64,000 nucleotides of DNA, from NCBI RefSeq assembly GCF_921293095.1, contig NC_060259.1, forward strand, positions 29,271,812 to 29,335,811. The letters run 5' to 3'. The notes below the pieces were generated by a model. The model saw only the letters and a list, made by a program, of their open reading frames with translations, did not search any database and was not told where the DNA came from. Each line of letters opens with the position of its first letter. Position 1 is the first letter of the stretch. The position numbers were made by a program, and so were the translations under genes. This document shows positions 31,513 to 58,039 of the stretch, one piece after another. This DNA comes from Ischnura elegans (Eukaryota > Arthropoda > Insecta > Odonata > Coenagrionidae).

Positions 31513-31518
31513 TTTATT
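31513..31518 (-). terminator. Poly(A) signal of the repeat gene
   Basis: AATAAA on the minus strand, 20 bp downstream of the tail-exon stop. The inverted copy keeps it at 63613-63618. Confidence 0.5.
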
Positions 31519-31538: not shown

Positions 31539-32017
31539 TTAACTCTTTGCATATAGAGTTACACGATGAAGTGATTTTGATAGCTGCAGCTCAATTTTTT
31601 TTCTGCTGGAAACATTGTTGCTTGCATTTGTAGTGCCATTCGTAGCTCCTTTCGCGGCGTTGAAGATAATGTTACTCAAGTTAACTAGCACATGGGGAAT
31701 ATCTATTGAATGCACTGTAGTGAGTGCTGTAAATGAGGGTAGTGTTGGCAATGTAGGGAGTGCTGGAAGTGGGGGTAGGGGTGGCAATGTAGGGGGTGCT
31801 AGAAATGGGGGTAGTGTTGGCAATGTAGGGAGTGCTGGAAGTGGGGGTAGTGGTGTCAATGTAGGGAGCGAGGGCAATCTAGGTAGTTCAGGTAATTTAG
31901 GCAGTGTAGGTAATATTGGGAGTGCAGGAAATGTATGAATTGCAGCTAGTGGTTCAGGGATTGTAAGTGGTGCAAACGCAGGCTTTATAGTCATTGTAGT
32001 AACACAATTTTTTGCCA
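31539..32017 (-). CDS. Exon 20: Pro/Leu-rich repeat tail of the secreted protein
   Basis: Entered through CTACAG|TG-GCA, phase 1 like every upstream exon. It encodes 158 residues: a short non-repetitive start (AKNCVTTMTIKPAF), about 75 residues of PxLPxLP repeats with period-3 prolines, then a Ser/Thr/Asn-rich end and stop. The repeat part is a minisatellite whose 9- and 12-bp steps keep the frame. The acceptor is weaker than a second one upstream at 32152 (TTTCAG|CGATCC). If that one is used in phase 1, the protein ends after 17 more residues (DEEPAPPAS-containing tail) and the PLP region becomes 3' UTR. Confidence 0.55.
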
Positions 32018-35000
32018 CTGTAGACTCCGGAAGAGGCTACTTAATGGGTGGTGTGCTGATGTCCTGTGAAATTCCAGCATTAACTTCTGGATGAGATTGT
32101 CAGCCTTGGATCGTGCGTGACGCGGGTGGAGCTGGTTCCTCATCATGGATCGCTGAAATGGAAAATAAAGATGCAATAAGATAAACGAGATAACGACTAA
32201 ATATTAGGCCCCGAAGTTTCAGGTCGCTGAATGGACGAAATGAGACGATGTTGGGGATAATATAAATAGGTATCCATTAACAATGAAGTCATTTCGAAAA
32301 AACTACCTCACGTGTCTTTTCCTAAATTATTGTCGTTCGTTTCATTATCCCTTAAGTGAATGAGTATCCCGACCTACTTCCCATGCCGGATTCGTTAAAA
32401 TTTGACCGCAGGTGTTGGATATTTGAAAACAGATACATTTATCATGTAAATTTGTTTCTTGAATATTTTTTTAATAATCCTGTTAATCTAAGGCATTTTT
32501 ATCATATCCTCCACATTACCTTGTTTAGGTAAGAGTGCATCTCAATTCAACTCTTTAAGCTGCACACGAACCTTATTATTTATTACCTAACGGCTCGCAA
32601 TTACTGCGGAGGTATATTCTTTCCGTATTTTCCAGCCTCATCTATTAAAAAACTAGCTCATTGTCAATAGGTTTCTTGTTTTCCTATTAGTGGTTTTACA
32701 ATAGTTGACAGAAAACTAGAAGTAGAGCGTCAGCATTCTTTAAGGTGCATCAAAACTGCGACTTTTTATTACTTCAGAAATTCTTAAGTCCTCAAAACCG
32801 TTTCAATGTGGTCTATCTTATCAGACGCGAGAAGGGAAGCATGGCGGTATTTTAAGGGGCCTTCGAGTCATTGGATTGCTTACCGGTTTCAAAGGAAAAC
32901 GAATCATTTTTATGTTTGTAGTTGTGTGATGCCTCCAGATTTGATGATAAATTTTTCATTTTCACATCATAATAGTTGTGACCACTCCTTGGCTCACCTA
33001 AAAGAAAAAATTATAATTATTAATAGTCATGTGAAGGAATGACGTAAATTTAATTGGTATACGGGAAACCTAGCAAAAATTCTGGTGAAAAAAAGATAAA
33101 AATTTACCTAATTCATACCAGTAGTTTTAATTTTGCTCGTAATCACACATATAACGACGAGAATCTTATGCTCTTCTATTGTGTCACATAGAAATAATAT
33201 TCGAAAAAATGGAAGAAACGTTTTCGAATGGTGTTTTTGAAAAAAAATTGAATCACTACCTCAAATGCCGTTCATCTGAATCAAACTTCGATGGCACGAA
33301 ACTTTTAGTTTTCTATCCAAAAAATAAGGAATTAACCACATCTTGCTTCATCGAAATCACCCATGTCTTCGCCACTTGCGTGCATTAACATATCACATTA
33401 ACACCCCAGTTTTAAAATTTTAACGGTTTCTTTCGTTTCCGTGACGTGCGTTTTCGATGTCGCTACTGAAATGTAATAAGTATATAAATTTTAAAATATT
33501 TTTATAATGGTACATTTGGTATCAGATAACGTTATCTACTTAGATGAAATGTGTTTATTCACTCAAGTGATAGCGATATGTATTCCTTTATTTGGTTTTT
33601 AACAGTAGAAATATGGATATATTACAAATGTTTCATTGCCATTGAAACTAAAGCATTATCTTTCACCTATTGTCTTAATGGGGGCAATGCAACCTCATAA
33701 CCATGCTGTGAAATAAGAGAGTAGTGTGTCGTGTTGGAAAATTTGGCCGCAAGTGTTGGATAATATAAAACAGATATGTATCATTCATATTTCATTTTTT
33801 CGTGATAACTATTTTAAATAATCCTGCTGTTCTTAGGCATAATTTATCATTTCCTGCATATCGCATTACGCTTGGTAAAAGTGCATCTCAACTCTGAAAA
33901 CTACACACGAGCGTTATTATTGGTTACATATCGGCTCCCAATTGCTGCCGAGCTGTATTGTTTTCCGCGTTTTGAAGCATCATTAATTTTTTCAAATGCT
34001 AAATTAAATTCAATCGGCTTCTTCTTGTTCGAATTTGAGGTATTGCAATACATAAAGAACATTAGAAGCAGAGCGTCAGCATGCCAAAAGGGGATTCAAA
34101 ATTACGACTCGAAGAATTTCATAAGTCTTCAAAACCGTTTAAATATGATCTATCTATCAGACGTTGCAAGTGAAGCAAGGCTGTATTTTAAGGGCCCATC
34201 CAGTCATTGGATTGCTTACCGGTTTCAAATGAAAACGAAGCATTATTATGTTTGTAGTTCTGTGATGCCTCCAGATTTGATGATAAAGTTTTCATTTTCA
34301 CGTCATAATAGTTGCGACCATTCCTTGGCTCACCTTAAAAAAAAAATATAATTAGTAATAGTCATGTGAAGGAATGACGCATAGTTAATAGATATACGGG
34401 ATACCTAGTGAAAATTCTGGTGAAAAAACCATAAAACATTAATAATGTATTAAGTTTCAGTTTTAAATTTGCTCGTATTCACAGATATATCCACGAGAAT
34501 CTTATACTCTTTTATTGTGCAAGGGAGAAGATATAATTCGAAAAAATGGAAGAATTGTTTTGGAATGGTTTTTTTGAAAAAAAAAAATTGAATCACTACC
34601 CCGAATACCATGCATCAGAATCAAAGTTCGCCGGAACGAAACATTTAGTTTTCTATCCAAAGGATATGGAATTAACCACATCTTGCTTCATTAAAATCAC
34701 GCATGCCTTCGCCACTTGCGTGCATTAACATACCAAGTTAACACCCCAGTTTTAAAATATTAACGGGGTCTTTTCGTTACCGTGACGTGCGTTTTCGGTG
34801 TCGCTACTGAAATGAAATAAGTATCGAAATTTTAAAAATATTTTTATAATGGTACATTTGGTATCAGATAACGTTATCTACTTAGATGAAATGTGTTTAT
34901 TCACTGAAGTCATAGGGGCATTTAGTCCTCATTCGGGTTATTAGTTGTAGAAATACGGACGTTTTATAAATGTTTCATTGCAACTGACACTAAAGCATTA

Positions 35001-38000
35001 TCTTTCAACTATTGTCTTAATGGGGGCAATGCAACCTCATGACCATGCTGTGAAATAAGAGAGAAGCGTGTCGTGTTGGAATATTTGGCCGCAAGTGTTG
35101 GATAATATAAAACAGATATGTATCATTCATATTTCATTTTTTCGTGATAACTATTTTCAATAATCCAGCTGTTCTTAGGCATTATTTTTCATATCCTGCA
35201 TATTGCATTATGCTTGGTAAAAGTGCATCTCAACTCTAAAAACTACACACGAGCCTTATTATTGGTTACATATCGGCTCCCAATTGCTGCGGAGCTGTAT
35301 TGATTTCCGCGTTTTGAAGCATCATTAATTTTTTCAAATGCTAAATTAAATTCAATCGGCTTCTTCTTGATCGATTTTGAGGTATTGCAATACATAAAGT
35401 ACATTAGAAGCAGAGCGTAAGCATGCCAAAAGGGGATTCAAAATTACGACTCGAAGAATTTCATAAGTCTTCAAAACCGATTCAATATGATCTCTCTTAT
35501 CAGACGCTGCAAGGGAAGCATGGCGGTATTTTCAGGGGCCATCGAGTCATTGGATTGCTTACCGGTTTCAAATGAAAACGAAGCATTATTATGTTTGTTG
35601 TTCTTTGATGCCTCCAGATTTGATGATAAATTTTTCATTTTCACGTCATAATAGTTGCGACCATTCCTTGGCTCACCTTAAAGAAAAAAATATAATTAGT
35701 AATAGTCATGTGAAGGAATGACGCATAGTTAATAGATATACGGGATACCTAGTGAAAATTCTGGTGAAAAAACCATAAAACATTAATAATGTATTAAGTT
35801 TCAGTTTTAAATTTGCTCGTATTCACAGTTATATCCACGAGAATCTTATACTCTTTTATTGTGCAAGGGAGAAGATATAATTCGAAAAAATGGAAGAGTT
35901 GTTTTGGAATGGTTTTTTTGAAAAAAAATATTGAATCACTACCCCGAATACCATGCATCAGAATCAAAGTTCGCCGGAACGAAACTTTTAGTTTACTATC
36001 CAAAGGATAACGAATTCCCCACATCTTGCTTCATCAAAATCACCCATGTCTTCGCCACTTGCTTGCATTTACATATCACATAAACACCCTAGTTTTAAAA
36101 TTTTAACGGTTTCTTTCGTTTCCGTGACGTGCGTTTTCGTTTGCGTCATTGAAATTAAATGTTTCTCCAAATTTTAAAATTATTTTTATAATGGTACATT
36201 TGGTATTAGATAAAATTCTCTACGTAGCCGATATGTGTTTATCCACTCAAGTGATAGGGATATATATTCCTTAATTTGGTTTTTAACTGTAGAAATATGG
36301 ACGTTTTATAAATGTTTCATTGCAACTGACACTAAAGCATTTTCTTTCACCTATTGTCTTAACGGGGGCAATGCAACCTCATAACCACGCTGTGAAATAA
36401 GAGAGAAGCGTGTCGTGTTGGAAAATTTTGCCGCAAGTGTTGGATAATATAAAACAGATATGTATCATTCATATTTCATTTTTTCGTGATAACTATTTTA
36501 AATAATCCTGCTGTTCTTAGGCATAATTTTTAATATCCTGCATATTGCATTATGCTTGGTAAAAGTGCATCTCAACTCTAAAAACTACACACGAGCCTTA
36601 TTATTGGTTACATATCGGCTCCCAATTGCTGTCGAGCTGTATTGTGTTCCGCGTTTTGAAGCATCATTAATTTTTTCAAATGCTAAATTAAATTCAATCG
36701 GCTTCTTCTTGATCGATTTTGAGGTATTGCAATACATAAAGTACATTAGAAGCAGAGCGTAAGCATGCCAAAAGGGGATTCAAAATTACGACTCGAAGAA
36801 TTTCATAAGTCTTCAAAACCGTTTAAATATGATCTATCTATCAGACGTTGCAAGTGAAGCAAGGCTGTATTTTAAGGGCCCATCCAGTCATTGGATTGCT
36901 TACCGGTTTCAAATGAAAACGAAGCATTATTATGTTTGTAGTTCTTTGATGCCTCCAGATTTGATGATAAATTTTTCATTTTCACGTCATAATAGTTGCG
37001 ACCATTCCTTGGCTCACCTTAAAGAAAAAATTATAATTAGTAATAGTCATGTGAAGGAATGACGTGTAGTTAATTGGTATACGGGATACCTAGCAAATAT
37101 TCTGGTGAAAAAACCATAAAAATTTACCTAATATATAGCAGTAGTTTTAATTTTGTTCGTAATCACACATATAACGACGAGAATCTTATGCTCTTCTATT
37201 GTGTCACATAGAAATAATATTCGAAAAAATGGAAGAAACGTTTTCGAATGGTGTTTTTGAAAAAAAAAATGAATCACTACCCCAAATACCATGCATCTGA
37301 ATCAAACTTCGATGGCACGAAACTTTTAGTTTTCTATCCAAAGGATAAAGAATTCACCACATCTTGCTTCATCAAAATCACCCATTCCTTCGCCACTTCT
37401 GTGCATTCACATACCACTCTCACACCCCCGTTTTATTTTGAATTGTTGCTTTTCGCTTCTGTGACGTGTGTTTTCGATTTCGTAACTCAAATAAATATGT
37501 GTCGAAATTTTAAAATTATTTTTATTATGGTGCATTTGGTATGAGATAAGATTCCCTACTTAGCCGAAATGTGTTTATCCACTCAAGTGATAGGGATATA
37601 TATTCCTTAATTTGGTTTTAAACTGTAGAAATATTCCCCATTTCGGTGTTTAATTGTAGAAATACGGATGCATTACAATTGTTTCGTTGCCATTGAAACA
37701 AGAGCATGATCTTTCACCGCTTTTCTTAGTAGGGGCAACGCAATCTCATGACCATGCTTTGAAATAAGAGTGAAGCGTGTCGTGTTGGAAAGTTTGGCCG
37801 CAAGTGTTGGATAATTGAAAACAGATATATATAATTCTTATATAATATTTCGTGATAATAATTGTAAATAATCCTGCTGTTCTAAGGCATTTTTTATCAT
37901 ATCCTTTATATCACATAATTTTTAGTAAAAGTGAATCTCAACTCTTAAAAATACACAAGAGCCTTATTATTGGTTACATGTCGGCTCACAATTGCTGCGT

Positions 38001-41000
38001 AGTTGTAACGTGTTCCGCATTTTAGAGTATCATTTATTATTTACTAATGAAATTTAATCTCAATCGGCTTCTTGATGTTTCCATTTGTGGTTTTGCAATA
38101 CTTGACAGAACATTAGAAGCAGAGCGTCAGCACGCCTAAAGGTGATTCAAAATTACGACTCGAAGAATTTCATAAGTCTTCAAAACCGATATTATCTCTC
38201 TTATCAGACGCTGCAAGGGAAGCATGGCGGTATTTTCAGGGGCCATCGAGTCATTGGATTGCTTACCGGTTTCAAAGGAAAACGAATCATTTTTATGTTT
38301 GTAGTTGTGTGATGCCTCCAGATTTGATGATAAATTTTTCATTTTCACGTCATAATAGTTGTGACCATTCCTTGGCTCACCTTAAAGAAAAAATTATAAT
38401 TAGTAATAGTCATGTGAAGGAATGACGTGTAGTTAATTGGTATACGGGATACCTAGCAAATATTCTGGTGAAAAAACCATAAAAATTTACCTAATATATA
38501 GCAGTAGTTTTAATTTTGTTCGTAATCACACATATAACGACGAGAATCTTATGCTCTTCTATTGTGTCAGATAGAAATAATATTCGAAAAATTGGAAGAA
38601 AGGTTTTCGAATGGTGTTTTTGAAAAAAAATTGAATCACTACCTCAAATGCCGTTCATCTGAATCAAACTTCGATGGCACGAAACTTTTAGTTTTCTATC
38701 CAAAAAATAAGGAATTAACCACATCTTGCTTCATCGAAATCACCCATGTCTTCGCCACTTGCGTGCATTAACATATCACATTAACACCCCAGTTTTAAAA
38801 TTTTAACGGTTTCTTTCGTTTCCGTGACGTGCGTTTTCGGTTGCGTCACTGAAATGAAATAAGTATCGAAATTTTAAAAATATTTTTATAATGGTACATT
38901 TGGTATCAGATAACGTTATCTACTTAGATGAAATGTGTTTATTCACTCAAGTGATAGGGACATTTATTCCTCATTCGGTTTATTAATTGTAGAAATACGG
39001 ACGTTTTATAAATGTTTCATTGCAACTTACACTAAATCATTATCTTTCACCCATTGTCTTAATGGGGGCAATGCAACCTCATGACCATGCTGTGAAATAA
39101 GAGAGAAGCGTGTCGTGTTGGAATATTTGGCCGCAAGTGTTGGATAATATAAAACAGATATGTATCATTCATATTTCATTTTTTCGTGATAACTATTTTC
39201 AATAATCCAGCTGTTCTTAGGCATTATTTTTCATATCCTGCATATTGCATTATGCTTGGTAAAAGTGCATCTCAACTCTAAAAACTACACACGAGCCTTA
39301 TTATTGGTTACATATCGGCTCCCAATTGCTGCGGAGCTGTATTGTTTTCCGCGTTTTGAAGCATCATTAATTTTTTCAAATGCTAAATTAAATTCAATCG
39401 GCTTCTTCTTGTTCGAATTTGAGGTATTGCAATACATAAAGAACATTAGAAGCAGAGCGTCAGCATGCCAAAAGGGGATTCAAAATTACGACTCGAAGAA
39501 TTTCATAAGTCTTCAAAACCGTTTAAATATGATCTATCTATCAGACGTTGCAAGTGAAGCAAGGCTGTATTTTAAGGGCCCATCCAGTCATTGGATTGCT
39601 TACCGGTTTCAAATGAAAACGAAGCATTATTATGTTTGTAGTTATGTGATGCCTCCAGATTTGATGACAAATTCTTCATTTTCACGTCATAATAGTTGCG
39701 ACCATTCCTTGGCTCACCTTAAAGAAAAAATTATAATTAGTAATAGTCATGTGAAGGAATGACGCATAGTTAATAGGTATACGGGATACCTAGTGATAAT
39801 TCTGGTGAAAAAACCATAAAACATTAATAATGTATTAAGTTTCAGTTTTAAATTTGCTCGTATTCACAGATATATCCACGAGAATCTTATACTCTTTTAT
39901 TTTGCCAGGGAGAAGATATAATTCGAAAAAATGGAAGTATTTTTTTCGAATGGTTTTTTTGAAAAAAAAAATTGAATCACTACCCCGAATACCATGCATC
40001 AGAATCAAAGTTCGCCGGAACGAAACTTTTAGTTTTCTATCCAAAGGATATGGAATTAACCACATCTTGCTTCATTAAAATCACGCATGCCTTCGCCACT
40101 TGCGTGCATTAACATACCAAGTTAACACCCCAGTTTTAAAATATTAACGGTTGCTTTTCGTTTCCGTGACGTGCGTTTTCGGTGTCGCTATTGAAATGAA
40201 ATAAGTATCGAAATTTTAAAAACATTTTTATAATGGTATATTTGGTATTAGATAACGTTATATACTTAGATGAAATGTGTTTATTCACTCAAGTGATAGG
40301 GACATTTATTCCTCATTCGGGTTATTAATTGTAGAAATACGGACGTTTTACAAATGTTTCATTGCAACTGACACTAAAGCATTATATTTCACCTATTGTC
40401 TTAATGGGGGCAATGCAACCTCATAACCATGCTGTGAAATAGGAGAGTAGTGTGTCGTGTTGGAAAATTTGGCCGCAAGTGTTGGATAATATAAAACAGA
40501 TATGTATCATTCATATTTCATTTTTTCGTGATAACTATTTGAAATATTCCTGCTGTTCTTAGGCATAATTTTCATTTCCTGCATATTGCATCATGCTTGG
40601 TAAAAGTGCATCTCAACTCTGAAAACTACACACGAGCCTTATTATTGGTTACATATCGGCTCCCAATTGCTGCGGAGCTGTATTGTTTTCCGCGTTTTGA
40701 AGCATCATTAATTTTTTCAAAGGCTAAATTAAATTCAATCGGCTTCTTCTTGTTCGAATTACAGGTATTGCAATACATAAAGATCGTTAGAAGCAGAGCG
40801 TCAGCATGCCAAAAGGGGATTCAAAATTACGACTCGAGGAATTTCATAAGTCTTCAAAAACGTTTCAATATGATCTCTCTTATCAGACGCTGCAAGGTAA
40901 GCATGGCGGTATTTTCAGGGTCCATCGAGTCATTGGATTGCTTACCGGTTTCAAATGAAAACGAAGCATTATTATGTTTGTAGTTCTTTGATGCCTCCAG

Positions 41001-44000
41001 ATTTGATGATAAATTTTTCATTTTCACGTCATAATAGTTGCGACCATTCCTTGGCTCACCTTAAAGAAAAAATTATAATTAGTAATAGTCATGTGAAGGA
41101 ATGACGTGTAGTTAATTGGTATTCGGGATACATAGCAAATATTCTGGTGAAAAAACCATAAAAATTTACCTAATATATAGCAGTAGTTTTAATTTTGTTC
41201 GTAATCACACATATAACGACGAGAATCTTATGCTCTTCTATTGTGTCAGATAGAAATAATATTCGAAAAATTGGAAGAAAGGTTTTCGAATGGTGTTTTT
41301 GAAAAAAAATTGAATCACTACCTCAAATGCCGTTCATCTGAATCAAATTTCGATGGCACGAAACTTTTAGTTTTATATCCAAAAAATAAGGAATTAACCA
41401 CATCTTGCTTCATCGAAATCACCCATGTCTTCGCCACTTGCGTGCATTAACATATCACATTAACACCCCAGTTTTAAAATTTTAACGGTTTCTTTCGTTT
41501 CCGTGACGTGCGTTTTCGGTTGCGTCACTGAAATGAAATAAGTATCGAAATTTTAAAAATATTTTTATAATGGTACATTTGGTATCAGATAACGTTATCT
41601 ACTTAGATGAAATGTGTTTATCCACTCAAGTGATAGGGACATTTATTCCTCATTCGGTTTATTAATTGTAGAAATACGGACGTTTTATAAATGTTTCATT
41701 GCAACTTACACTAAAGCATTATCTTTCACCCATTGTCTTAATGGGGGCAATGCAACCTCATGACCATGCTGTGAAATAAGAGAGAAGCGTGTCGTGTTGG
41801 AATATTTGGCCGCAAGTGTTGGATAATATAAAACAGATATGTATCATTCATATTTCATTTTTTCGTGATAACTATTTTCAATAATCCAGCTGTTCTTTGG
41901 CATAATTTTTCATATCCTGCATATTGCATTATGCTTGGTAAAAGTGCATCTTAACCCAAAAAATACACACGAGCCTTATTATTGGTTACATATCGGCTCC
42001 CAATTGCTGCGGAGCAGTATTGTTTTCCGCGTTTTGAAGCATCATTAATTTTTTCAAATGCTAAATTAAATTCAATCGGCTTCTTCTTGTTCGAATTTGA
42101 GGTATTGCAATACATAAAGAACATTAGAAGCAGAGCGTCAGCATGCCAAAAGGGGATTCAAAATTACGACTCGAAGAATTTCATAAGTCTTCAAAACCGT
42201 TTAAATATGATCTATCTATCAGACGTTGCAAGTGAAGCAAGGCTGTATTTTAAGGGCCCATCCAGTCATTGGATTACTTACCGGTTTCAAATGAAAACGA
42301 AGCATTATTATGTTTGTAGTTATGTGATGCCTCCAGATTTGATGATAAATTTTTCATTTTCACGTCATAATAGTTGCGACCATTCCTTGGCTCACCTTAA
42401 AGAAAAAATTATAATTAGTAATAGTCATGTGAAGGAATGACGCATAGTTAATAGGTATACGGGATACCTAGTGAAAATTCTGGTGAAAAAACCATAAAAC
42501 ATTAATAATGTATTAAGTTTCAGTTTTAAATTTGCTCGTATTCACAGATATATCCACGAGAATCTTATACTCTTTTATTGTGCAAGGGAGAAGATATAAT
42601 TCGAAAAAATGGAAGAATTGTTTTGGAATGGTTTTTTTGAAAAAAAAAATTGAATCACTACCCCGAATACCATGCATCAGAATCAAAGTTCGCCGGAACG
42701 AAACATTTAGTTTTCTATCCAAAGGATATGGAATTAACCACATCTTGCTTCATTAAAATCACGCATGCCTTCGCCACTTGCGTGCATTAACATACCAAGT
42801 TAACACCCCAGTTTTAAAATATTAACGGTTGCTTTTCGTTACCGTGACGTGCGTTTTCGGTGTCGCTACTGAAATGAAATAAGTATCGAAATTTTAAAAA
42901 TATTTTTATAATGGTACATTTGGTATCAGATAACGTTATCTACTTAGATGAAATGTGTTTATTCACTGAAGTCATAGGGGCATTTAGTCCTCATTCGGGT
43001 TATTAGTTGTAGAAATACGGACGTTTTATAAATGTTTCATTGCAACTGACACTAAAGCATTATCTTTCAACTATTGTCTTCATGGGGGCAATGCAACCTC
43101 ATGACCATGCTGTGAAATAAGAGAGAAGCGTGTCGTGTTGGAATATTTGGCCGCAAGTGTTGGATAATATAAAACAGATATGTATCATTCATATTTCATT
43201 TTTTCGTGATAACTATTTTAAATAATCCTTCTGTTCTTAGGCATAATTTTTCCATATCCTGCATATTGCATTATGCTTGGTAAAAGTGCATCTCAACTCT
43301 AAAAACTACACACGAGCCTTTTTATTGGTTACATATCGGCTCCCAATTGCTGCGGAGCTGTATTGTTTTCCGCGTTTTGAAGCATCATTAATTTTTTCAA
43401 AGGCTAAATTAAATTCAATCGGCTTCTTCTTGTTCGAATTTGAGGTATTGCAATACATAAAGAACATTAGAAGCAGAGCGTCAGCATGCCAAAAGGGGAT
43501 TCAAAATTACGACCTGAAGAATTTCGTAAGTCTTCAAAACCGATTCAATATGATCTCTCTTATCAGACGCTGCAAGGGAAGCATGGCGGTATTTTCAGGG
43601 GCCATCGAGTCATTGGATTGCTTACCGGTTTCAAATGAAAACGAAGCATTATTATGTTTGTAGTTCTGTGATGCCTCCAGATTTGATGATAAATTTTTCA
43701 TTTTCACGTCATAATAGTTGCGACCATTCCTTGGCTCACCTTAAAGAAAAAAAATATAATTAGTAATAGTCATGTGAAGGAATGACGCATAGTTAATAGA
43801 TATACGGGATACCTAGTGAAAATTCTGGTGAAAAAACCATAAAACATTAATAATGTCTTAAGTTTCAGTTTTAAATTTGCTCGTATTCACAGTTATAACC
43901 ACGAGAATCTTATACTCTTTTATTGTGCAAGGGAGAAGATATAATTCGAAAAAATGGAAGAGTTTTTGGAATGGTTTTTTTGAAAAAAAATATTGAATCA

Positions 44001-47000: not shown

Positions 47001-50000
47001 GCATTTAGTCCTCAATCGGGTTATTAGTTGTAGAAATACGGACGTTTTTTAAATGTTTCATTGCAACTGACACTAAAGCATTATCTTTCAACTATTGTCT
47101 TCATGGGGGCAATGCAACCTCATGACCATGCTGTGAAATAAGAGAGAAGCGTGTCGTGTTGGAATATTTGGCCGCAAGTGTTGGATAATATAAAACAGAT
47201 ATGTATCATTCATATTTCATTTTTTCGTGATAACTATTTTCAATAATCCAGCTGTTCTTAGGCATAATTTTTCATATCCTGCATATTGCATTATGCTTGG
47301 TAAAAGTGCATCTCAACTCTAAAAACTACACACGAGCCTTATTATTGGTTACATATCGGCTCCCAATTGCTGCGGAGCTGTATTGTTTTCCGCGTTTTGA
47401 AGCATCATTAATTTTTTCAAAGGCTAAATTAAATTCAATCGGCTTCTTCTTGTTCGAATTTGAGGTATTGCAATACATAAAGAACATTAGAAGCAGAGCG
47501 TCAGCATGCCAAAAGGGGATTCAAAATTACGACTCGAAGAATTTCGTAAGTCTTCAAAACCGATTCAATATGATCTCTCTTATCAGACGCTGCAAGGGAA
47601 GCATGGCGGTATTTTCAGGGGCCATCGAGTCATTGGATTGCTTACCGGTTTCAAATGAAAACGAAGCATTATTATGTTTGTAGTTCTGTGATGCCTCCAG
47701 ATTTGATGATAAATTTTTCATTTTCACGTCATAATAGTTGCGACCATTCCTTGGCTCACCTTAAAGAAAAAAATATAATTAGTAATAGTCATGTGAAGGA
47801 ATGACGCATAGTTAATAGATATACGGGGTACCTAGTGAAAATTCTGGTGAAAAAACCATAAAACATTAATATATATTAAGTTTCAGTTTTAAATTTGCTC
47901 GTATTCACAGTTATAACCACGAGAATCTTATACTCTTTTATTGTGCAAGGGAGAAGATATAATTCGAAAAAATGGAAGAGTTGTTTTGGAATGGTTTTTT
48001 TGAAAAAAAATATTGAATCACTACCCCGAATACCATGCATCAGAATCAAAGTTCGCCGGAACGAAACTTTTAGTTTACTATCCAAAGGATAACGAATTCC
48101 CCACATCTTGCTTCGTCAAAATCACCCATGTCTTCGCCACTTGCTTGCATTTACATATCACATAAACACCCTAGTTTTAAAATTTTAACGGTTACTTTCG
48201 TTTCCGTGACGTGCGTTTTCGTTTGCGTCATTGAAATTAAATGTTTCTCCAAATTTTAAAATTATTTTTATAATGGTACATTTGGTATCAGATAAAATTC
48301 TCTACGTAGCCGATATGTTTTTATCCACTCAAGTGATAGGGATATATATTCCTTAATTTGGTTTTTAACTGTAGAAATATGGACGTTTTATAAATGTTTC
48401 ATTGCAACTGACACTAAAGCATTTTCTTTCACCTATTGTCTTAACGGGGGCAATGCAACCTCATAACCACGCTGTGAAATAAGAGAGAAGCGTGTCGTGT
48501 TGGAAAATTTTGCCGCAAGTGTTGGATAATATAAAACAGATATGTATCATTCATATTTCATTTTTTCGTGATAACTATTTTAAATAATCCTGCTGTTGTT
48601 AGGCATAATTTTTCATATCCTGCATATTGCATTATGCTTGGTAAAAGTGCATCTCAACTCTAAAAACTACACACGAGCCTTATTATTGGTTACATATCGG
48701 CTCCCAATTGCTGCCGAGCTGTATTGTGTTCCGCGTTTTGAAGCATCATTAATTTTTTCAAATGCTAAATTAAATTCAATCGGCTTCTTCTTGATCGAAT
48801 TTGAGGTATTGCAATACATAAAGTACATTAGAAGCAGAGCGTAAGCATGCCAAAAGGGGATTCAAAATTACGACTCGAAGAATTTCATAAGTCTTCAAAA
48901 CCGATTCAATATGATCTCTCTTATCAGACGCTGCAAGGGAAGCATGGCGGTATTTTCAGGGGCCATCGAGTCATTGGATTGCTTACCGGTTTCAAATGAA
49001 AACGAAGCATTATTATGTTTGTAGTTCTTTGATGCCTCCAGATTTGATGATAAATTTTTCATTTTCACGTCATAATAGTTGCGACCATTCCTTGGCTCAC
49101 CTTAAAGAAAAAATTATAATTAGTAATAGTCATGTGAAGGAATGACGTGTAGTTAATTGGTATACGGGATACCTAGCAAATATTCTGGTGAAAAAACCAT
49201 AAAAATTTACCTAATATATAGCAGTAGTTTTAATTTTGTTCGTAATCACACATATAACGACGAGAATCTTATGCTCTTCTATTGTGTCAGATAGAAATAA
49301 TATTCGAAAAATTGGAAGAAAGGTTTTCGAATGGTGTTTTTGAAAAAAAATTGAATCACTACCTCAAATGCCGTTCATCTGAATCAAACTTCGATGGCAC
49401 GAAACTTTTAGTTTTCTATCCAAAAAATAAGGAATTAACCACATCTTGCTTCATCGAAATCACCCATGTCTTCGCCACTTGCGTGCATTAACATATCACA
49501 TTAACACCCCAGTTTTAAAATTTTAACGGTTTCTTTCGTTTCCGTGACGTGCGTTTTCGGTTGCGTCACTGAAATGAAATAAGTATCGAAATTTTAAAAA
49601 TATTTTTATAATGGTACATTTGGTATCAGATAACGTTATCTACTTAGATGAAATGTGTTTATTCACTCAAGTGATAGGGACATTTATTCCTCATTCGGTT
49701 TATTAATTGTAGAAATACGGACGTTTTATAAATGTTTCATTGCAACTTACACTAAATCATTATCTTTCACCCATTGTCTTAATGGGGGCAATGCAACCTC
49801 ATGACCATGCTGTGAAATAAGAGAGAAGCGTGTCGTGTTGGAATATTTGGCCGCAAGTGTTGGATAATATAAAACAGATATGTATCATTCATATTTCATT
49901 TTTTCGTGATAACTATTTTCAATAATCCAGCTGTTCTTAGGCATAATTTTTCATATCCTGCATATTGCATTATGCTTGGTAAAAGTGCATCTCAACTCTA

Positions 50001-53000
50001 AAAACTACACACGAGCCTTATTATTGGTTACATATCGGCTCCCAATTGCTGCGGAGCTGTATTGTTTTCCGCGTTTTGAAGCATCATTAATTTTTTCAAA
50101 GGCTAAATTAAATTCAATCGGCTTCTTCTTGTTCGAATTTGAGGTATTGCAATACATAAAGAACATTAGAAGCAGAGCGTCAGCATGCCAAAAGGGGATT
50201 CAAAATTACGACTCGAAGAATTTCGTAAGTCTTCAAAACCGATTCAATATGATCTCTCTTATCAGACGCTGCAAGGGAAGCATGGCGGTATTTTCAGGGG
50301 CCATCGAGTCATTGGATTGCTTACCGGTTTCAAATGAAAACGAAGCATTATTATGTGTGTAGTTCTGTGATGCCTCCAGATTTGATGATAAATTTTTCAT
50401 TTTCACGTCATAATAGTTGCGACCATTCCTTGGCTCACCTTAAAGAAAAAAATATAATTAGTAATAGTCATGTGAAGGAATGACGCATAGTTAATAGATA
50501 TACGGGGTACCTAGTGAAAATTCTGGTGAAAAAACCATAAAACATTAATATATATTAAGTTTCAGTTTTAAATTTGCTCGTATTCACAGTTATAACCACG
50601 AGAATCTTATACTCTTTTATTGTGCAAGGGAGAAGATATAATTCGAAAAAATGGAAGAGTTGTTTTGGAATGGTTTTTTTGAAAAAAAATATTGAATCAC
50701 TACCCCGAATACCATGCATCAGAATCAAAGTTCGCCGGAACGAAACTTTTAGTTTACTATCCAAAGGATAACGAATTCCCCACATCTTGCTTCATCAAAA
50801 TCACCCATGTCTTCGCCACTTGCTTGCATTTACATATCACATAAACACCCTAGTTTTAAAATTTTAACGGTTACTTTCGTTTCCGTGACGTGCGTTTTCG
50901 TTTGCGTCATTGAAATTAAATGTTTCTCCAAATTTTAAAATTATTTTTATAATGGTACATTTGGTATCAGATAAAATTCTCTACGTAGCCGATATGTTTT
51001 TATCCACTCAAGTGATAGGGATATATATTCCTTAATTTGGTTTTTAACTGTAGAAATATGGACGTTTTATAAATGTTTCATTGCAACTGACACTAAAGCA
51101 TTTTCTTTCACCTATTGTCTTAACGGGGGCAATGCAACCTCATAACCACGCTGTGAAATAAGAGAGAAGCGTGTCGTGTTGGAAAATTTTGCCGCAAGTG
51201 TTGGATAATATAAAACAGATATGTATCATTCATATTTCATTTTTTCGTGATAACTATTTTAAATAATCCTGCTGTTGTTAGGCATAATTTTTCATATCCT
51301 GCATATTGCATTATGCTTGGTAAAAGTGCATCTCAACTCTAAAAACTACACACGAGCCTTATTATTGGTTACATATCGGCTCCCAATTGCTGCCGAGCTG
51401 TATTGTGTTCCGCGTTTTGAAGCATCATTAATTTTTTCAAATGCTAAATTAAATTCAATCGGCTTCTTCTTGATCGAATTTGAGGTATTGCAATACATAA
51501 AGTACATTAGAAGCAGAGCGTAAGCATGCCAAAAGGGGATTCAAAATTACGACTCGAAGAATTTCATAAGTCTTCAAAACCGATTCAATATGATCTCTCT
51601 TATCAGACGCTGCAAGGGAAGCATGGCGGTATTTTCAGGGGCCATCGAGTCATTGGATTGCTTACCGGTTTCAAATGAAAACGAAGCATTATTATGTTTG
51701 TAGTTCTTTGATGCCTCCAGATTTGATGATAAATTTTTCATTTTCACGTCATAATAGTTGCGACCATTCCTTGGCTCACCTTAAAGAAAAAATTATAATT
51801 AGTAATAGTCATGTGAAGGAATGACGTGTAGTTAATTGGTATACGGGATACCTAGCAAATATTCTGGTGAAAAAACCATAAAAATTTACCTAATATATAG
51901 CAGTAGTTTTAATTTTGTTCGTAATCACACATATAACGACGAGAATCTTATGCTCTTCTATTGTGTCAGATAGAAATAATATTCGAAAAATTGGAAGAAA
52001 GGTTTTCGAATGGTGTTTTTGAAAAAAAATTGAATCACTACCTCAAATGCCGTTCATCTGAATCAAACTTCGATGGCACGAAACTTTTAGTTTTCTATCC
52101 AAAAAATAAGGAATTAACCACATCTTGCTTCATCGAAATCACCCATGTCTTCGCCACTTGCGTGCATTAACATATCACATTAACACCCCAGTTTTAAAAT
52201 TTTAACGGTTTCTTTCGTTTCCGTGACGTGCGTTTTCGGTTGCGTCACTGAAATGAAATAAGTATCGAAATTTTAAAAATATTTTTATAATGGTACATTT
52301 GGTATCAGATAACGTTATCTACTTAGATGAAATGTGTTTATTCACTCAAGTGATAGGGACATTTATTCCTCATTCGGTTTATTAATTGTAGAAATACGGA
52401 CGTTTTATAAATGTTTCATTGCAACTTACACTAAATCATTATCTTTCACCCATTGTCTTAATGGGGGCAATGCAACCTCATGACCATGCTGTGAAATAAG
52501 AGAGAAGCGTGTCGTGTTGGAATATTTGGCCGCAAGTGTTGGATAATATAAAACAGATATGTATCATTCATATTTCATTTTTTCGTGATAACTATTTTCA
52601 ATAATCCAGCTGTTCTTAGGCATTATTTTTCATATCCTGCATATTGCATTATGCTTGGTAAAAGTGCATCTCAACTCTAAAAACTACACACGAGCCTTAT
52701 TATTGGTTACATATCGGCTCCCAATTGCTGCGGAGCTGTATTGTTTTCCGCGTTTTGAAGCATCATTTATTTTTTCAAATGCTAAATTAAATTCAATCGG
52801 CTTCTTCTTGTTCGAATTTGAGGTATTGCAATACATAAAGAACATTAGAAGCAGAGCGTCAGCATGCCAAAAGGGGATTCAAAATTACGACTCGAAGAAT
52901 TTCATAAGTCTTCAAAACCGTTTAAATATGATCTATCTATCAGACGTTGCAAGTGAAGCAAGGCTGTATTTTAAGGGCCCATCCAGTCATTGGGTTGCTT

Positions 53001-56000
53001 ACCGGTTTCAAATGAAAACGAAGCATTATTATGTTTGTAGTTATGTGATGCCTCCAGATTTGATGATAAATTTTTCATTTTCACGTCATAATAGTTGCGA
53101 CCATTCCTTGGCTCACCTTAAAGAAAAAATTATAATTAGTAATAGTCATGTGAAGGAATGACGCATAGTTAATAGGTATACGGGATACCTAGTGAAAATT
53201 CTGGTGAAAAAACCATAAAACATTAATAATGTATTAAGTTTCAGTTTTAAATTTGCTCGTATTCACAGATATATCCACGAGAATCTTATACTCTTTTATT
53301 TTGCCAGGGAGAAGATATAATTCGAAAAAATGGAAGTATTTTTTTCGAATGGTTTTTTTGAAAAAAAAATTGAATCACTACCCCGAATACCATGCATCAG
53401 AATCAAAGTTCGCCGGAACGAAACTTTTAGTTTTCTATCCAAAGGATATGGAATTAACCACATCTTGCTTCATTAAAATCACGCATGCCTTCGCCACTTG
53501 CGTGCATTAACATACCAAGTTAACACCCCCGTTTTAAAATATTAACGGTTGCTTTTCGTTTCCGTGACGTGCGTTTTCGGTTGCGTCACTGAAATGAAAT
53601 AAGTATCGAAATTTTAAAAATATTTTCATAATGGTACATTTGGTATCAGATAACGTTATCTACTTAGATGAAATGTGTTTATTCACTCAAGTGATAGGGA
53701 CATTTATTCCTCATTCGGTTTATTAATGACGTGCGTTTTCGTTTGCGTCATTGAAATTAAATGTTTCTCCAAATTTTAAAATTATTTTTATAATGGTACA
53801 TTTGGTATCAGATAAAATTCTCTACGTAGCCGATATGTGTTTATCCACTCAAGTGATAGGGATATATATTCCTTAATTTGGTTTTTAACTGTAGAAATAC
53901 GGACGTTTTATAAATGTTTCATTGCAACTTACACTAAATCATTATCTTTCACCCATTGTCCTAATGGGGGCAATGCAACCTCATGACCATGCTGTGAAAT
54001 AAGAGAGAAGCGTGTCGTGTTGGAATATTTGGCCGCAAATGTTGGATAATTGAAAACAGATATATAACATTCTTATTTTATTTTTTCCTGATAACTATTT
54101 TAAATAATCATGCTGTTCTTAGGCATTATTTATCATTTCCTGCATATTGCATTATGCTTGGTAAAAGTGCATCTCTACTCTGAAAACTACACACGAGCGT
54201 TATTATTGGTTACATATCGGCTCCCAATTGCTGCCGAGCTGTATTGTTTTCCGCGTTTTGAAGCATCATTAATTTTTTCAAATGCTAAATTTAATTCAAT
54301 CGGCTTCTTCTTGATCGAATTAGTGGTATTGCAATACATAAAGAACATTAGAAGCAGGGCGTCAGCATTCCTAAACGTGATTCAAAATTACGACTCGAAG
54401 AATTTCATAAGTCTTCAAAACCGTTTAAATATGATCTATCTATCAGACGTTGCAAGTGAAGCAAGGCTTTTTTTTAAGGGGCCATCCAGTCATTGGATTG
54501 CTAACCGGTTTCAAGGGAAAAGGAAGCAATTGAATGGTTGTATTTGTGTGATGCCTCCTTATTTGATGTTAAGTTTTGAATTTTCACGTCATAAATGTTG
54601 TGTCCATTCCTTGGTTGACCTAAAAGAAAAAATAATAATTAGTAATAGTCATGTGAAGGAATGACGCATAGTTAAAAGGTATACGGGATACCTAGTGAAA
54701 ATTCTGGTGAAAAAACCATAAAACATTAATATATATTAAGTTTCAGTTTTAAATTTGCTCGTATTCACAGATATATCCACGAGAATCTTATACTCGTCTT
54801 TTGTGCCAGGGAGAAGATATTATTCGAAAAAATGGAAGTATTTTTTTCGAATGGTTTTTTTGAAAAAAATTGAATCACTACCCCGAATACCATGCATCAG
54901 AATCAAAGTTCGCCGGAACGAAACTTTTAGTTTCCTATCCAAAGGATCAGGAATTAACCACATCTTGCTTCATTAAAATCACGCATTCCTTCGCCACTTC
55001 TGTGCATTCACATACCACACTCACACCCCCGTTTTATTTTGAATTGTTGCTTTTTGTTTCTGTGACGTGTGTTTTCGATTTCGTAACTCAAAGAAATATG
55101 TGTCGAAATTTTAAAATTATTTTTATTATGGTGCATTTGGTATGAGATAAGATTCCCTACTTAGCCGAAATGTGTTTATCCACTCAAGTGATAGGGTCTG
55201 TTATTCCCCATTTCGGTGTTTAACTGTAGAAATACGGATGCATTACAAATGTTTCGTTGCCATTGAAACAAGAGCATGATCTTTCACCGCTTTTCTTAGT
55301 AGGGGCAATGCAATCTCATGACCATGCTGTGAAATAAGAGAAGCGTGTCGTGTTGGAAAGTTTGGCCGCAAGTGTTGGATAATAGTAAACAGATATATAT
55401 TATTCTTATACAATATTTCGTGATAATAATTGTAAATAATCCTTCTGGTCTTAGGCATTTTTTATCATATCCTTTAAATCACATAATTTTTAGTAAAAGT
55501 GCATCTCAACTCTTAAAAATACACAAGAGTCTTATTAATGGTTACATTTCGGCTCACAATGCTGCGTAGTTGTAACGTGTTCCGCATTTTAGAGTATCAT
55601 GTATTATTTAGTAATGAAATTTAATCTCAATCGGCTTCTTGATGTTTCTATTTGTGGTTTTGCAATACTTGACAGAAAATTAGAAGCAGAGCGTCAGCAT
55701 GCCTAAAGGTGATTCAAAATTACGAATCTAAGAATTTCATAAGTCTACAAAACCGTTTCAATATGATCTCTCTTATCAGACGCTGCAAGTGAAGCATGGC
55801 TGTATTTTAAGGGGCCATCGAGTCATTGGATTGCTTACCGGTTTCAAAGGAAAACGAAGCATTATTTTGTTTGTAGTTGTGTGATGCCTCCAGATTTGAT
55901 GATAAATTTTTCATTTTCACGTCATAATAGTTGTGTCCATCGCTTGGCTCACCTAAAAGAAAAAATTATTATTGCTAATAGTCATGTGAAGGAATGACGT

Positions 56001-57914
56001 ATAGTTAATTGGTATATGGGATACCTAGCAAAACTTCTGATGAAAAAACCATAAAAACTTACCTATATATGGCAGTAGTTTAAATTTTTCTCGTAATCAC
56101 ACATACAACCACGAAAATCTTATGCTCTTCTATTGTGTCAGAGAGAAATAATATTCGAAAAAATGGGAGGAAGTTTTCGGATGGTGTTTTTGAAAAATAA
56201 TTGAATCACTACCCCAAATACCATGCATCTGAATCAAACTTCGATGGCACGAAACATTTAGTTTTCTATCCAAAGGATAAGGAATTAACCACATCTTGCT
56301 TCATCAAAATTACCCATGCCTTCGCCACTTGCGTGCTTTCACATACCACATTAATACCCCAGTTTAAAAATTTTACGGTTCTTTTCGTTTCTGTGACGTG
56401 CGAGGTGATGTTCGAGTTAGACTCGGAGATCGTCCACGTGGAGATGAAAGGCCGAAGATTGGACACTTTGGAGAAATTGGAAATTTTGCAAGAAGGAGGC
56501 TTTTCACTAATGAATGAACAACTATTTTTTGGATATTCCCCACACCTGGCCATACCATTCCTGAAGTCCTCCACCCAATGACCTACACCCTTACCCAACT
56601 TCCCCTTCCACTATCACCCATCCGTTCTATATAAATACAACCAACCATTCATTATTGTACTTGATTATGACCTAACTGTCAAAACGCGTTGTACGGAAAA
56701 TAAACATGTGGAATATTGCCACATTTGTGATATTTTTAAAACTTAGAATGTCATTCCACTATATAACGCCTGCTTTTGTTACTAATATATAGCATTTTAA
56801 GTATTCGTTTTGCTCATATTCACAGATGTAACCACGAGAATCTTACACTCTTCTCCTGTACCAGGGAGAAGATATAATTCGAAAAAATGGAAGAAATATT
56901 TTCGAGTGGTTTTTTTGAAAAAAAAAATTGAATCGCTATCCCAAATACCCTGCATCAGAATCGAACTACGTTGGAACGAACATTTAGTTTTCTATCCAAT
57001 GGATGAGGAATTAACCAAATATTGCGTCCTCAACATGACTTATTTCTTCTAATGTTTTTGTATTCACATTTACATTCAGACAGGGTTGATTGGAGAGAGG
57101 TGAGGTAAGAGTGCAAAGGAATATCAAGTTAAAATTATTTTCTGAAGATACTTTTTGCACGATGTGGAAACCCTGGACGCGAAGGAAGCAGTGCGGCTAA
57201 TGGCTTGATTAGCTGGTTGCATTGGCACGGAGGAGAGTGGAGAGTTTAGTTTGGAATGGGTTTGAAGCAAAGAAACTTTAGGCATGGTGGGTGAAGAGCA
57301 GTAGCGGATACAGAAATAACTCAAGTGGGGCGCTAAAGATACCTTGTGTTACCTTTACTTTTATCGTAATTAAAAATAATAAAGTCACATGCAAAGTTTA
57401 AACAGGCTTTAGTTTAAGTTATTATGTAAAAATAAAATACAATGCCATCTTAAGATATAAAAAAGTTAGAACTGTGCTTTTGCATTGTTTGGAAATACGG
57501 TCCACCCCACAATTAGGGGCGCATCCCTGCGATAACCATCTATATCCGCCACTGATGAAGATGTTAAACATTCAGTAGAAATACCGAGGAGACTTCAGTG
57601 GAGACGAGGCTCCTTGTTGAGCGGGTTTTAAGCGGTAATGCTCTAAAAATTGTAGGGGGAATATTTTCAAGTAAGGTAGTGGCAGAAAGTATTATATGTA
57701 AACACAAAGATAGCGAATAGGCCTTATTTTGAGTTGAAGAGGTGAGTTCAATATTTCAAGACATTGATCAGGGCGATTAGAAATCATCTCCGGGTAAAAA
57801 AACTTGTACCGGTAGAGAAGAGAATGAAAGAATATTTCGTAACTTACTTTGGTCCGACAGGAGAACTCCCGTGACACAAAGAGCCACAGCGAGGATGAAA
57901 TGTCTTAGAGACAT
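31539..57914 (-). CDS. Secreted repeat protein gene: signal exon, 18 tandem 38-residue exons, PLP tail
   Basis: Predicted 20-exon gene. Exon 1 (57848-57914) gives ATG, a hydrophobic signal peptide and the donor A|GTAAGT, leaving phase 1. Eighteen 114-bp exons follow, each starting after a pyrimidine-rich AG, reading (x)GT-GAG-CCA..., and ending ACC-G|GTAAGC. They are therefore phase 1-1 and join as Gly. The tail exon (31539-32017) starts TG-GCA, also phase 1. Joined length is 2598 nt, 865 residues plus stop. Introns are 1.2-1.4 kb, intron 1 is 1.9 kb, and AATAAA lies 20 bp past the stop. The repeat is rich in Asn, Ser, Lys, His and Tyr, lacks Cys, and carries an N-glycosylation-type NLS motif, so a secreted or structural protein is inferred. 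I do not recognise the family. The model rests on splice signals and phase only, without transcript evidence. An alternative last exon start is at 32152. Confidence 0.72.
32100..32152 (-). CDS. Alternative last exon start with short acidic/proline tail
   Basis: The minus-strand acceptor TTATTTTCCATTTCAG|CG is stronger than that of the PLP exon and is retained in the inverted copy at about 63049-63050. In the gene's phase it reads a short HDEEPAPPASRTIQG tail, then TGA. In another phase (0) it stays open for about 53 codons across the PLP exon's acceptor. The 140 bp that follow differ by only one base between the two arms. It may be an alternative terminal exon. Confidence 0.35.
32884..32997 (-). 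CDS. Repeat exon 19 (last repeat)
   Basis: EPRSGHNYYDVK start, with the KND ending as in exon 15. The acceptor is CTTTTAG and the donor GTAAGC. It is the last repeat before the tail exon, about 0.87 kb downstream. Confidence 0.68.
34220..34333 (-). CDS. Repeat exon 18, Gln-24 type
   Basis: Gln at position 24 and Thr for Asn at position 15 (MKTLSS). The polypyrimidine tract is lengthened; the exon is unchanged in length. Confidence 0.7.
35563..35676 (-). CDS. Repeat exon 17, Lys-24 type with Tyr-26 to Asn
   Basis: Lys at position 24, with NNKHNN where the others have NYKHNN. Splice sites intact. Confidence 0.7.
36904..37017 (-). CDS. Repeat exon 16, Lys-24 type
   Basis: Lys at position 24; splice sites intact. 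Confidence 0.7.
38267..38380 (-). CDS. Repeat exon 15, His-24/KND type
   Basis: GHN at positions 5-7, His at 24, and KHKNDSFSFETG at the end instead of KHNNAS. The surrounding unit belongs to an older, more divergent flavour than its neighbours. Confidence 0.7.
39604..39717 (-). CDS. Repeat exon 14, His-24 type with silent changes
   Basis: His at position 24. Two private substitutions (AAA to AAG and TTA to TTG in the KNL stretch) are both synonymous in the proposed frame. Confidence 0.7.
40946..41059 (-). CDS. Repeat exon 13, Lys-24 type
   Basis: Lys at position 24; splice sites intact. Confidence 0.7.
42282..42395 (-). CDS. Repeat exon 12, His-24 type, consensus donor
   Basis: His at position 24. 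The donor here is GTAAGT, a perfect consensus, instead of GTAAGC. Confidence 0.7.
43626..43739 (-). CDS. Repeat exon 11, Gln-24 type
   Basis: Gln at position 24. The A-tract of the neighbouring pyrimidine stretch is one or two bases longer, but the exon itself is unchanged in length. Confidence 0.7.
44967..45080 (-). CDS. Repeat exon 10, Lys-24 type
   Basis: Lys at position 24; splice sites intact, open throughout. Confidence 0.7.
46303..46416 (-). CDS. Repeat exon 9, His-24 type
   Basis: His at position 24; splice sites intact. It shares a private intronic substitution just past the donor with the exon at 53003, pointing to common descent. Confidence 0.7.
47646..47759 (-). CDS. Repeat exon 8, Gln-24 type
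   Basis: Gln at position 24; splice sites intact. It is the partner of the exon at 50325-50438 in the 2.68-kb duplication. Confidence 0.7.
48987..49100 (-). CDS. Repeat exon 7, Lys-24 type
   Basis: Lys at position 24; splice sites intact. It is nearly identical, with its flanks, to the exon at 51666-51779. Confidence 0.7.
50325..50438 (-). CDS. Repeat exon 6, Gln-24 type
   Basis: Gln at repeat position 24, and a private Lys-to-Thr change at position 27 (NYTHNN). Splice sites are intact. Confidence 0.7.
51666..51779 (-). CDS. Repeat exon 5, Lys-24 type
   Basis: Lys at repeat position 24; intact GTAAGC donor and TTTAAG acceptor. It is part of the distal copy of the 2.68-kb duplicated pair. 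Confidence 0.7.
53003..53116 (-). CDS. Repeat exon 4, His-24 type
   Basis: EPRNGRNYYDVKMKNLSSNL start, His at repeat position 24, KHNNASFSFETG end. Intact acceptor and donor. It lies in the long 1.50-kb hybrid unit. Confidence 0.7.
53564..53890 (-). repeat. Intron segment present twice, in two flavours (hybrid unit)
   Basis: The segment from GACGTGCGTTTTCG to the AGGGACATTTATTCC/AGGGATATATATTCC box occurs first in the flavour ending ATTCCTCATTCGG, then again at once in the flavour ending TTCCTTAATTTGG. It accounts for the 1.50-kb spacing between exons 53003 and 54506. It is best explained by unequal exchange between two unit types. Confidence 0.8.
54506..54619 (-). CDS. Repeat exon 3 (most divergent, weakened donor)
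   Basis: This copy has about 15 differing codons (QPRNGHNIYDVKIQNLTSNK start) yet is still 114 bp and open. The acceptor is CTTTTAG. The donor is GTTAGC instead of GTAAGC, which may lower its use; skipping it would keep the frame because the exon is phase 1-1. Confidence 0.55.
55839..55952 (-). CDS. Repeat exon 2 (first repeat, divergent)
   Basis: The acceptor is TTTTAG and the donor ACCG|GTAAGC. Its start is EPSDGHNYYDVK where most copies have EPRNG, and it has Gln-Asn at repeat positions 28-29 (KQNNAS). It is one of the two most divergent left-arm copies, which fits its place at the array edge where homogenisation is weakest. Confidence 0.65.
56400..56581 (+). pseudogene. Retroelement protein C-terminus relic in intron 1
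   Basis: Plus-strand frame with FELDSEIVHVEMKGRRLDTL..., LMNEQLFFGYSPHL and a stop, antisense to the repeat gene. The KGRRLDTLEKLEI...NEQLFF pattern recalls C-terminal ends of Penelope-like retroelement proteins (recall only). AATAAA follows at about 56699. Against the inverted copy, most codon changes alter the residue, so the frame is not under selection. It is fused in frame to array sequence upstream. Confidence 0.35.
56800..57050 (-). repeat. Partial array unit without exon in intron 1
   Basis: Matches only the exon-free half of the 1.34-kb unit, from the TTAATTCCTC box to the TCACAGATGTAACCACGAG box. The mirror copy is at 59164-59420. It is a leftover of the array edge beyond the retroelement relic. 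Confidence 0.6.
57299..57554. mobile_element. hAT-like MITE in intron 1
   Basis: Ends CAGTAGCGGATA and TATCCGCCACTG are inverted repeats with one mismatch. Flanking 8-mers gtgaagag and atgaagat match at 6 of 8, as for a hAT target-site duplication. No coding content. Confidence 0.6.
57848..57914 (-). CDS. Exon 1 of the repeat gene: start codon and signal peptide
   Basis: The 67-nt exon encodes 22 codons plus one base. The N-terminus MSLRHFILAVALCVTGVLLS is a typical signal peptide: a short basic start, a hydrophobic core, then small residues before a polar DQ. The donor is AA|GTAAGT-like (A|GTAAGTTACG), a near-perfect consensus. Phase 1 fits the first repeat exon, making the split codon A+GT (Ser). 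It lies in the single-copy centre between the inverted arms, and no second copy exists in the window. An alternative in-frame read-through past the donor continues to about 57692, but it would discard the excellent splice site. Confidence 0.75.
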
Positions 57915-58010: not shown

Positions 58011-58039
58011 GACTGCTCTAGAACAGTCCCACTTTTATT
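58011..58039 (-). promoter_or_regulatory. Putative core promoter of the repeat gene
   Basis: On the minus strand a TATA-like AATAAAAG (58039-58032) lies about 25 bp upstream of an initiator-like GCAGTC (58016-58011). This would give a 5' UTR of about 100 nt before the ATG at 57914. CTAGAA is present on the plus strand at 57945, 57970 and 58018; the first two sit in a 15-bp segment repeated with one mismatch. The call is by sequence pattern and position only. Confidence 0.4.

Follow-up and report, generated by a model that had tools for sequence, protein, structure and literature searches.

A tandem array of 18 symmetric 114-bp exons on the damselfly X chromosome and its predicted secreted repeat protein

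In the blue-tailed damselfly Ischnura elegans the X chromosome carries on its minus strand a 24-kb array of 18 repeat exons, each within its own exon-intron unit. The array lies in a stretch of 64,000 nucleotides (the window, X:29271812-29335811), and raises the question of whether these exons form one gene, where that gene ends and what it would encode. Taken as a whole, the locus is probably best explained as a protein-coding X-chromosomal gene for a secreted N-glycoprotein, the length of which follows the exon copy number.

Anatomy of the exon array

The window was searched with one repeat exon using nhmmer, which gave 21 matches, 18 on the minus strand and three on the plus strand. All 18 minus-strand exons are preceded by AG and followed by GT, are exactly 114 bp long and have phase 1-1, and the frame obtained by joining exon 1 to the 18 repeat exons (55952 to 32884) contains no stop. 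Given this length, phase and open frame, changes in the number of units keep the frame. The exon starts are ~1.33-1.36 kb apart in 16 of 17 steps and ~1.50 kb apart in one, the longer unit being explained by a 162-bp tandem duplication within one intron (53565-53888). The earlier note on this DNA had described a first exon with a phase-1 donor (found at 57914-57848) followed by 18 phase 1-1 exons of 114 bp, with one 38-residue repeat per 1.34-kb unit; this anatomy was confirmed, while the tail exon and total length that it proposed were not upheld. The coding exons up to the last repeat are as follows.

57848..57914, minus strand, coding part of exon 1, MSLRHFILAVALCVTGVLLSDQ, with ATG and phase-1 donor; also conserved at other loci
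55839..55952, minus strand, repeat exon 1 of 18 (114 bp, phase 1-1)
54506..54619, minus strand, repeat exon 2, divergent type (nhmmer envelope trimmed by 2 bases)
53003..53116, minus strand, repeat exon 3
51666..51779, minus strand, repeat exon 4
50325..50438, minus strand, repeat exon 5
48987..49100, minus strand, repeat exon 6
47646..47759, minus strand, repeat exon 7
46303..46416, minus strand, repeat exon 8
44967..45080, minus strand, repeat exon 9
43626..43739, minus strand, repeat exon 10
42282..42395, minus strand, repeat exon 11
40946..41059, minus strand, repeat exon 12
39604..39717, minus strand, repeat exon 13
38267..38380, minus strand, repeat exon 14
36904..37017, minus strand, repeat exon 15
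35563..35676, minus strand, repeat exon 16
34220..34333, minus strand, repeat exon 17
32884..32997, minus strand, repeat exon 18

The hydrophobic N-terminus of exon 1 is conserved at other loci and is a putative signal peptide. The region upstream of exon 1 can be aligned in nine family copies, and in these nine alignments the position of a candidate TATA-like element is conserved, with changes.

58032..58039, minus strand, TATA-like element AATAAAAG, ~120 bp upstream of the ATG

Gene family and the 3' end of the array gene

The genome (1.72 Gb, 110 contigs) was searched with the repeat exon at E <= 0.001 and with the signal exon at E <= 10. The published I. elegans assembly has 110 scaffolds and 1,723 Mb, with 148.00 Mb for chromosome 2 and 123.64 Mb for X (PMC9975421). 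Ischnura senegalensis has an assembly as well (PMC12033981). At least 40 matches to the repeat exon were obtained, 39 on X and one on chromosome 2, with 21 inside the window and 19 outside; this count is a lower bound, and the second repeat of copy E2, for example, is not among them. The signal exon gave 11 matches (eight on X, two on chromosome 1, one on chromosome 2), as did the C-terminus, which was searched for with a sequence blended from copies (nine on X, one on chromosome 2, one on chromosome 5). As copies on one chromosome may not be independent, the excess on X is no more than suggestive. The window gene has the family order of signal exon, repeat exon and tail exon. All 44 repeat exons listed for comparison (44/44) are 114 bp long, and damage in the form of a stop or lost splice site affects 5 of the 23 exons of other loci compared with 0 of 18 in the window array. 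The repeat exons of the inspected copies are as follows.

W (the window array gene): 18
W+ (the inverted copy beside it): 3
A23: 2
B38: 5, two with stops
C41: 3
D42a: 5, the first without GT donor
D42b: 4, the first without GT donor
D42c: 2, of which one has a stop and lacks AG
E2: 2, with a third in its RefSeq model that is short and divergent
F94: 1 candidate, of ~48 codons
H69: no repeat exon found
Chromosome-1 pair: only fragments
Chromosome 5: three stretches with a match, distributed over both strands

The signal exon was not found for A23 or W+, and further places on X with matches, near 45.9, 92.2 and 104.7 Mb, lie outside the inspected set. Two family members are arranged head to head (X:42663094-42663977) with near-identical first exons and ~0.75 kb between their start codons, a spacing such as a two-way promoter would have. 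The longer repeat exons of ~48 codons, seen in F94 and on chromosome 5 (local coordinates L027 ~15582-15722 and L034 3373-3516), share an extra stretch near FPRFHHNGD or FPKFHHNGD and are perhaps an older form of the exon.

Two I. elegans RefSeq proteins are built from the same exons. P0005 (LOC124153843, uncharacterized) has the same signal exon and 38-residue repeat, with two repeats and a short divergent third where the window gene has 18, and P0006 ('vegetative cell wall protein gp1-like') has the same signal exon, repeat and tail with a single repeat, and keeps a proline-rich end. In our reading the gp1 label of P0006 matches the proline-rich part and says nothing of kinship. These two paralogues were the only close proteins found. 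The description of the gene as undescribed in the earlier note holds in that the protein searches gave no match to the array, though these short relatives are already RefSeq entries. No homology outside I. elegans was detected in protein searches that scored the ~8000 candidates sharing most words, or 523; with candidate sets limited in this way distant relatives can be missed. Four other protein matches were set aside, and those inspected (P0001, P0002 and P0004) were rich in proline-leucine stretches.

The 3' end of the gene was located by comparison of the family copies.

32100..32152, minus strand, coding part of the tail exon, AIHDEEPAPPASRTIQG then TGA (32102-32100), at the family acceptor, where RefSeq P0006 is spliced
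31539..32017, minus strand, proline-rich frame (the tail exon of the earlier note), most likely a relict in the 3' untranslated region
31513..31518, minus strand, first AATAAA past the proline-rich frame, a candidate poly(A) signal

An AG acceptor homologous to window position 32152, followed by a similar peptide, is present in 9 of 9 copies with an aligned tail, and P0006, which corresponds to copy D42c, passes from its repeat directly into the tail at this acceptor. The second D42c repeat exon, with its stop and missing AG, is left out of the P0006 model without loss of frame because the exon is symmetric. In the window the tail contributes 17 residues before the TGA, giving a predicted protein of 723 residues. 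The earlier acceptor at 32017 is therefore replaced by that at 32152, and the figure of 865 residues, although arithmetically right for a frame running to 31539, does not stand as the product length.

In D42a, D42b, D42c and E2 the tail frame continues into the proline-rich part, and likewise in F94, which was read separately. In W, W+, A23 and B38 the short tail peptide ends at a TGA, and C41 has the same TGA and an earlier TAG. Behind the TGA and a later TAG the proline-rich frame persists in W and W+; it was not found in the stretches examined of A23, B38 and C41. The simplest history, and the most likely one from these comparisons, is that a stop codon turned the proline-rich end into 3' untranslated sequence, the loss of which is under way. 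D42a and D42b have proline-rich tails enlarged by a frame-keeping 36-bp repeat, and their open frames about the C-terminus are 429 and 356 codons long.

Alternatively the last intron could end at 32017 and the proline-rich frame be translated, either in the only product or in an alternative isoform (865 residues). That frame is still open over 165 codons, and in D42a-c, E2 and F94 translation from the upstream acceptor takes in its homologue without a change of frame. However, the acceptor at 32152 is the one conserved in 9 of 9 copies, and the tract before 32017 is the poorer of the two (pyrimidines 0.65 compared with 0.82, T 0.29 compared with 0.65). Over the first 64 tail codons, W or W+ compared with D42 gave nonsynonymous above synonymous differences (pN above pS, ratios 1.6-2.4), as in released sequence, although the C-terminal parts give 0.74-0.88. 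Translation from 32017 is accordingly given only a slim chance.

With the tail ending at 32100 the precursor contains 18 cysteine-free repeats of 38 residues, rich in asparagine and serine. Without its first 20 residues it has no cysteine, 17% asparagine, 13% serine and an isoelectric point of 9.15. The precursor has 36 N-glycosylation sequons and no dibasic pair; a sequon stands at position 16 in 39 of the 44 exons, and at position 31 also in 39 of the 44.

Exon variation, constraint and unit turnover

Fifteen units were aligned, those of repeats 3-17 (u4-u18); repeats 1, 2 and 18 were not included, nor were the units of the plus strand. Of the gap-free sites, 11/114 were variable in the exon compared with 313/1208 in the rest (intron), and diversity was 0.0195 in exon and 0.0778 in intron. 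None of 1095 overlapping gap-free windows of 114 columns outside the exon was as low in variation as the exon itself. Gene conversion could add to this low exon variation. In the coding frame 41 of 44 exons contain no stop, whereas each of the other five frames is interrupted by stops in 23 to 44 of the 44; since the exons are alike by common descent, these counts are not independent. Comparison between loci (269 pairs, covering 25 of the 44 exons) revealed no gap within the exon.

Several observations weigh against a working, constrained gene. For the same 269 pairs the exon divergence between loci was 0.164, like that of nearby intron (~0.14-0.19). The pN/pS ratio within the array was 0.79 when all 18 exons were counted, 0.81 when repeat 2 was omitted and 0.56 when codon 25 was omitted as well. 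Between loci it was 0.94 (bootstrap 0.63-1.46), with two of the five other frames scoring 0.90 and 0.91 and three scoring 1.10-1.24, and in E2 compared with loci A-D pN exceeded pS with a ratio of 2.2. Shuffling a repeat yields two sequons in 27% of cases, the protein searches gave no entry for the window gene or its array, and the assembly may have miscounted the exons. The count of 18 is that of one assembled haplotype, as in the assembly; high-fidelity (HiFi) reads underlie the assembly, making an invented exon array less likely. The codon statistics give weak support to constraint at the protein level, and the figures are read here as those of a probable working gene whose protein evolves fast and whose array units are being homogenised.

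The main rival is a young or decaying duplicate, in which neutral exchange from an open exon built an array with little or no expression, the frames being open by recent descent. A pN/pS near one is in keeping with such a duplicate, as are the related copies in which stops occur, splice sites are gone or the signal exon is missing, and the loss of the proline-rich end behind a stop. It is harder to reconcile with exon variation four times below intron variation inside the array, with 0 of 18 exons damaged and with the retention of exon 1 and the core upstream region, and is considered unlikely, though of some weight. Coding on the plus strand, where open frames of 138-202 codons recur across the repeat exons and would be the real product, was rejected as extremely unlikely. 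Ten array units hold such a frame (33818-54664), but stops occur outside the exon in 9 of 15 units, and the pN/pS there is 0.91, with 0.98 and 1.01 in shifted frames.

The units of the array have turned over. Identity is 98.1-99.9% within the cores of three classes and ~90-94% between classes. Class a comprises u4, u6, u9, u12 and u14, with u18 apart at ~95%; class b comprises u5, u7, u10 and u16; and class c comprises u8, u11 and u17, with u13 apart at ~96%. Unit u15 fits no class and is nearest to u2. The order a-b-c occurs twice in succession (u6-u11), and such higher-order classes are what exchanges involving several units together would leave. In a tree most units cluster by locus, with the last repeats of W, W+, B38 and A23 grouped together, a pattern that fits what would be expected if the old last exon was kept while the inner exons multiplied. 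That unit number can change without breaking the frame, as the earlier note proposed, agrees with paralogues that have 1-5 repeat exons compared with 18, and with classes that fit exchange.

The DNA around A23, B38, C41, D42 and E2 matches the left flank of the window in blocks, mostly at 91-96%, over ~15 kb. The first block, exon 1 with intron 1, has ~90-94% identity between loci, and one array intron compared with other loci mostly 78-85%. The array part has therefore diverged further between loci than the DNA around it, in keeping with turnover of non-equivalent units. A mobile element was considered and set aside, as the flanks match in broken blocks and were read as segmental duplication; no search for element ends was made.

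The array gene and its inverted copy are held within a large inverted repeat (window 21504-31794 and from 63338 on). Its outer flank is 9.5 kb at 99.05% identity, while the enclosed genes differ by up to ~10%. Part of the left flank (28443-30789) is made up of a dispersed repeat, which recurs on many chromosomes with ~70% identity. The inverted copy has three repeat exons and both tails; its exon 1 was searched for and not found.

58692..63600, plus strand, inverted copy (W+) without exon 1; homology begins in intron 1 (58692 matches 57524)
60267..60380, plus strand, inverted copy, repeat exon 1
61599..61712, plus strand, inverted copy, repeat exon 2
62203..62316, plus strand, inverted copy, repeat exon 3

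Searches of the locus against Rfam and for tRNA genes gave no matches, and a bacterial promoter scan is uninformative here. The copies may also be viewed as an X-amplified, partly palindromic and fast-evolving secreted family differing mainly in exon number, maintained by sex-linked (reproductive or drive-like) selection, the selected trait being repeat number at the X copy. In favour of this reading are the location of most copies found on X, the presence of some inverted pairs, and amino-acid change that is about as fast as silent change between loci; it is regarded as unlikely.

Predicted product and known parallels

If the gene is transcribed and all exons are spliced in order, the 723-residue precursor would enter the secretory pathway via the putative signal-peptide exon. 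The product would be a long, heavily glycosylated extracellular repeat protein of a coat, secretion or matrix, the coating role being the weakest step of this proposal; a structural or salivary role may be envisaged. Protein length and glycan number would be set by the count of 1.34-kb exon-intron units, and unequal exchange would alter this count in whole units with the frame kept.

A signal peptide followed by near-identical short repeats would also suit a precursor from which many short peptides, for example antimicrobial ones, are cut, and insects have such multi-peptide precursors. Against this, there are 0 dibasic pairs in 723 residues, a count that addresses dibasic sites only, and no Pfam family reaches its cut-off with single repeats, P0005 or P0006, leaving a peptide precursor very unlikely. 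With a six-repeat query EFP_N, IRS and baeRF_family7 rose above the Pfam cut-off, the score being summed over the repeats. As single repeats and the RefSeq members were below cut-off (EFP_N at 13.5 bits compared with a cut-off of 23 for one repeat, and nothing for another repeat, P0005 or P0006), these matches were rejected as sums. Among solved structures none matched a four-repeat query, and the repeat profile gave one match with an E value of 0.088. Predicted structure models were too poor for use, with mean predicted local distance difference test scores (pLDDT) of 54.9 and 68.9 and predicted template modelling scores (pTM) of 0.22 and 0.30.

The glycoprotein gene proposed here was compared with known repeat-number genes. 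The kringle IV type 2 region of human LPA consists of head-to-tail exon-intron units of types A, B and C in 1 to >40 copies (PMC4378929). In both cases genomic units with introns lie within one gene and each adds an in-frame repeat of a secreted protein, in the damselfly a predicted one. The LPA units are 5.5 kb with two exons of a kringle domain, whereas those of the damselfly are 1.34 kb with one 114-bp exon and a cysteine-free repeat. The two are not homologous, and the damselfly unit number was compared between paralogous loci, not between individuals. Human DMBT1 (salivary agglutinin) is a secreted glycoprotein with 7 to 21 SRCR domains depending on genomic repeat number (PMC9038570). In the damselfly gene too a genome-fixed number of tandem repeats would set protein length, but SRCR repeats are cysteine-rich and microbe-binding, while the damselfly repeat has no cysteine. 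With its head-to-tail units and symmetric exons the window gene belongs with LPA- and DMBT1-like arrays by architecture, not by descent.

The salivary glue (Sgs) proteins of Drosophila are secreted and glycosylated and have internal repeats (PMC6352337). No homology was found between these proteins and the damselfly gene. The Sgs repeats lie within exons. In the literature on tandem symmetric exons, as partly available, nothing closer than LPA, DMBT1 and Sgs was found; no published work was found linking I. elegans with 'vegetative cell wall protein', or combining odonata, egg, glycoprotein and tandem repeat.

The analysis draws attention to a gene for which the database searches gave no protein of its own and corrects its 3' end, providing an example of a C-terminus lost behind one stop codon. 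If transcribed, the array would be an insect parallel to LPA and DMBT1, with a product length counted in genomic exon-intron units. Its sister genes with 1 to 5 units in the same genome make the family a natural test bed for change in exon number and its selection.

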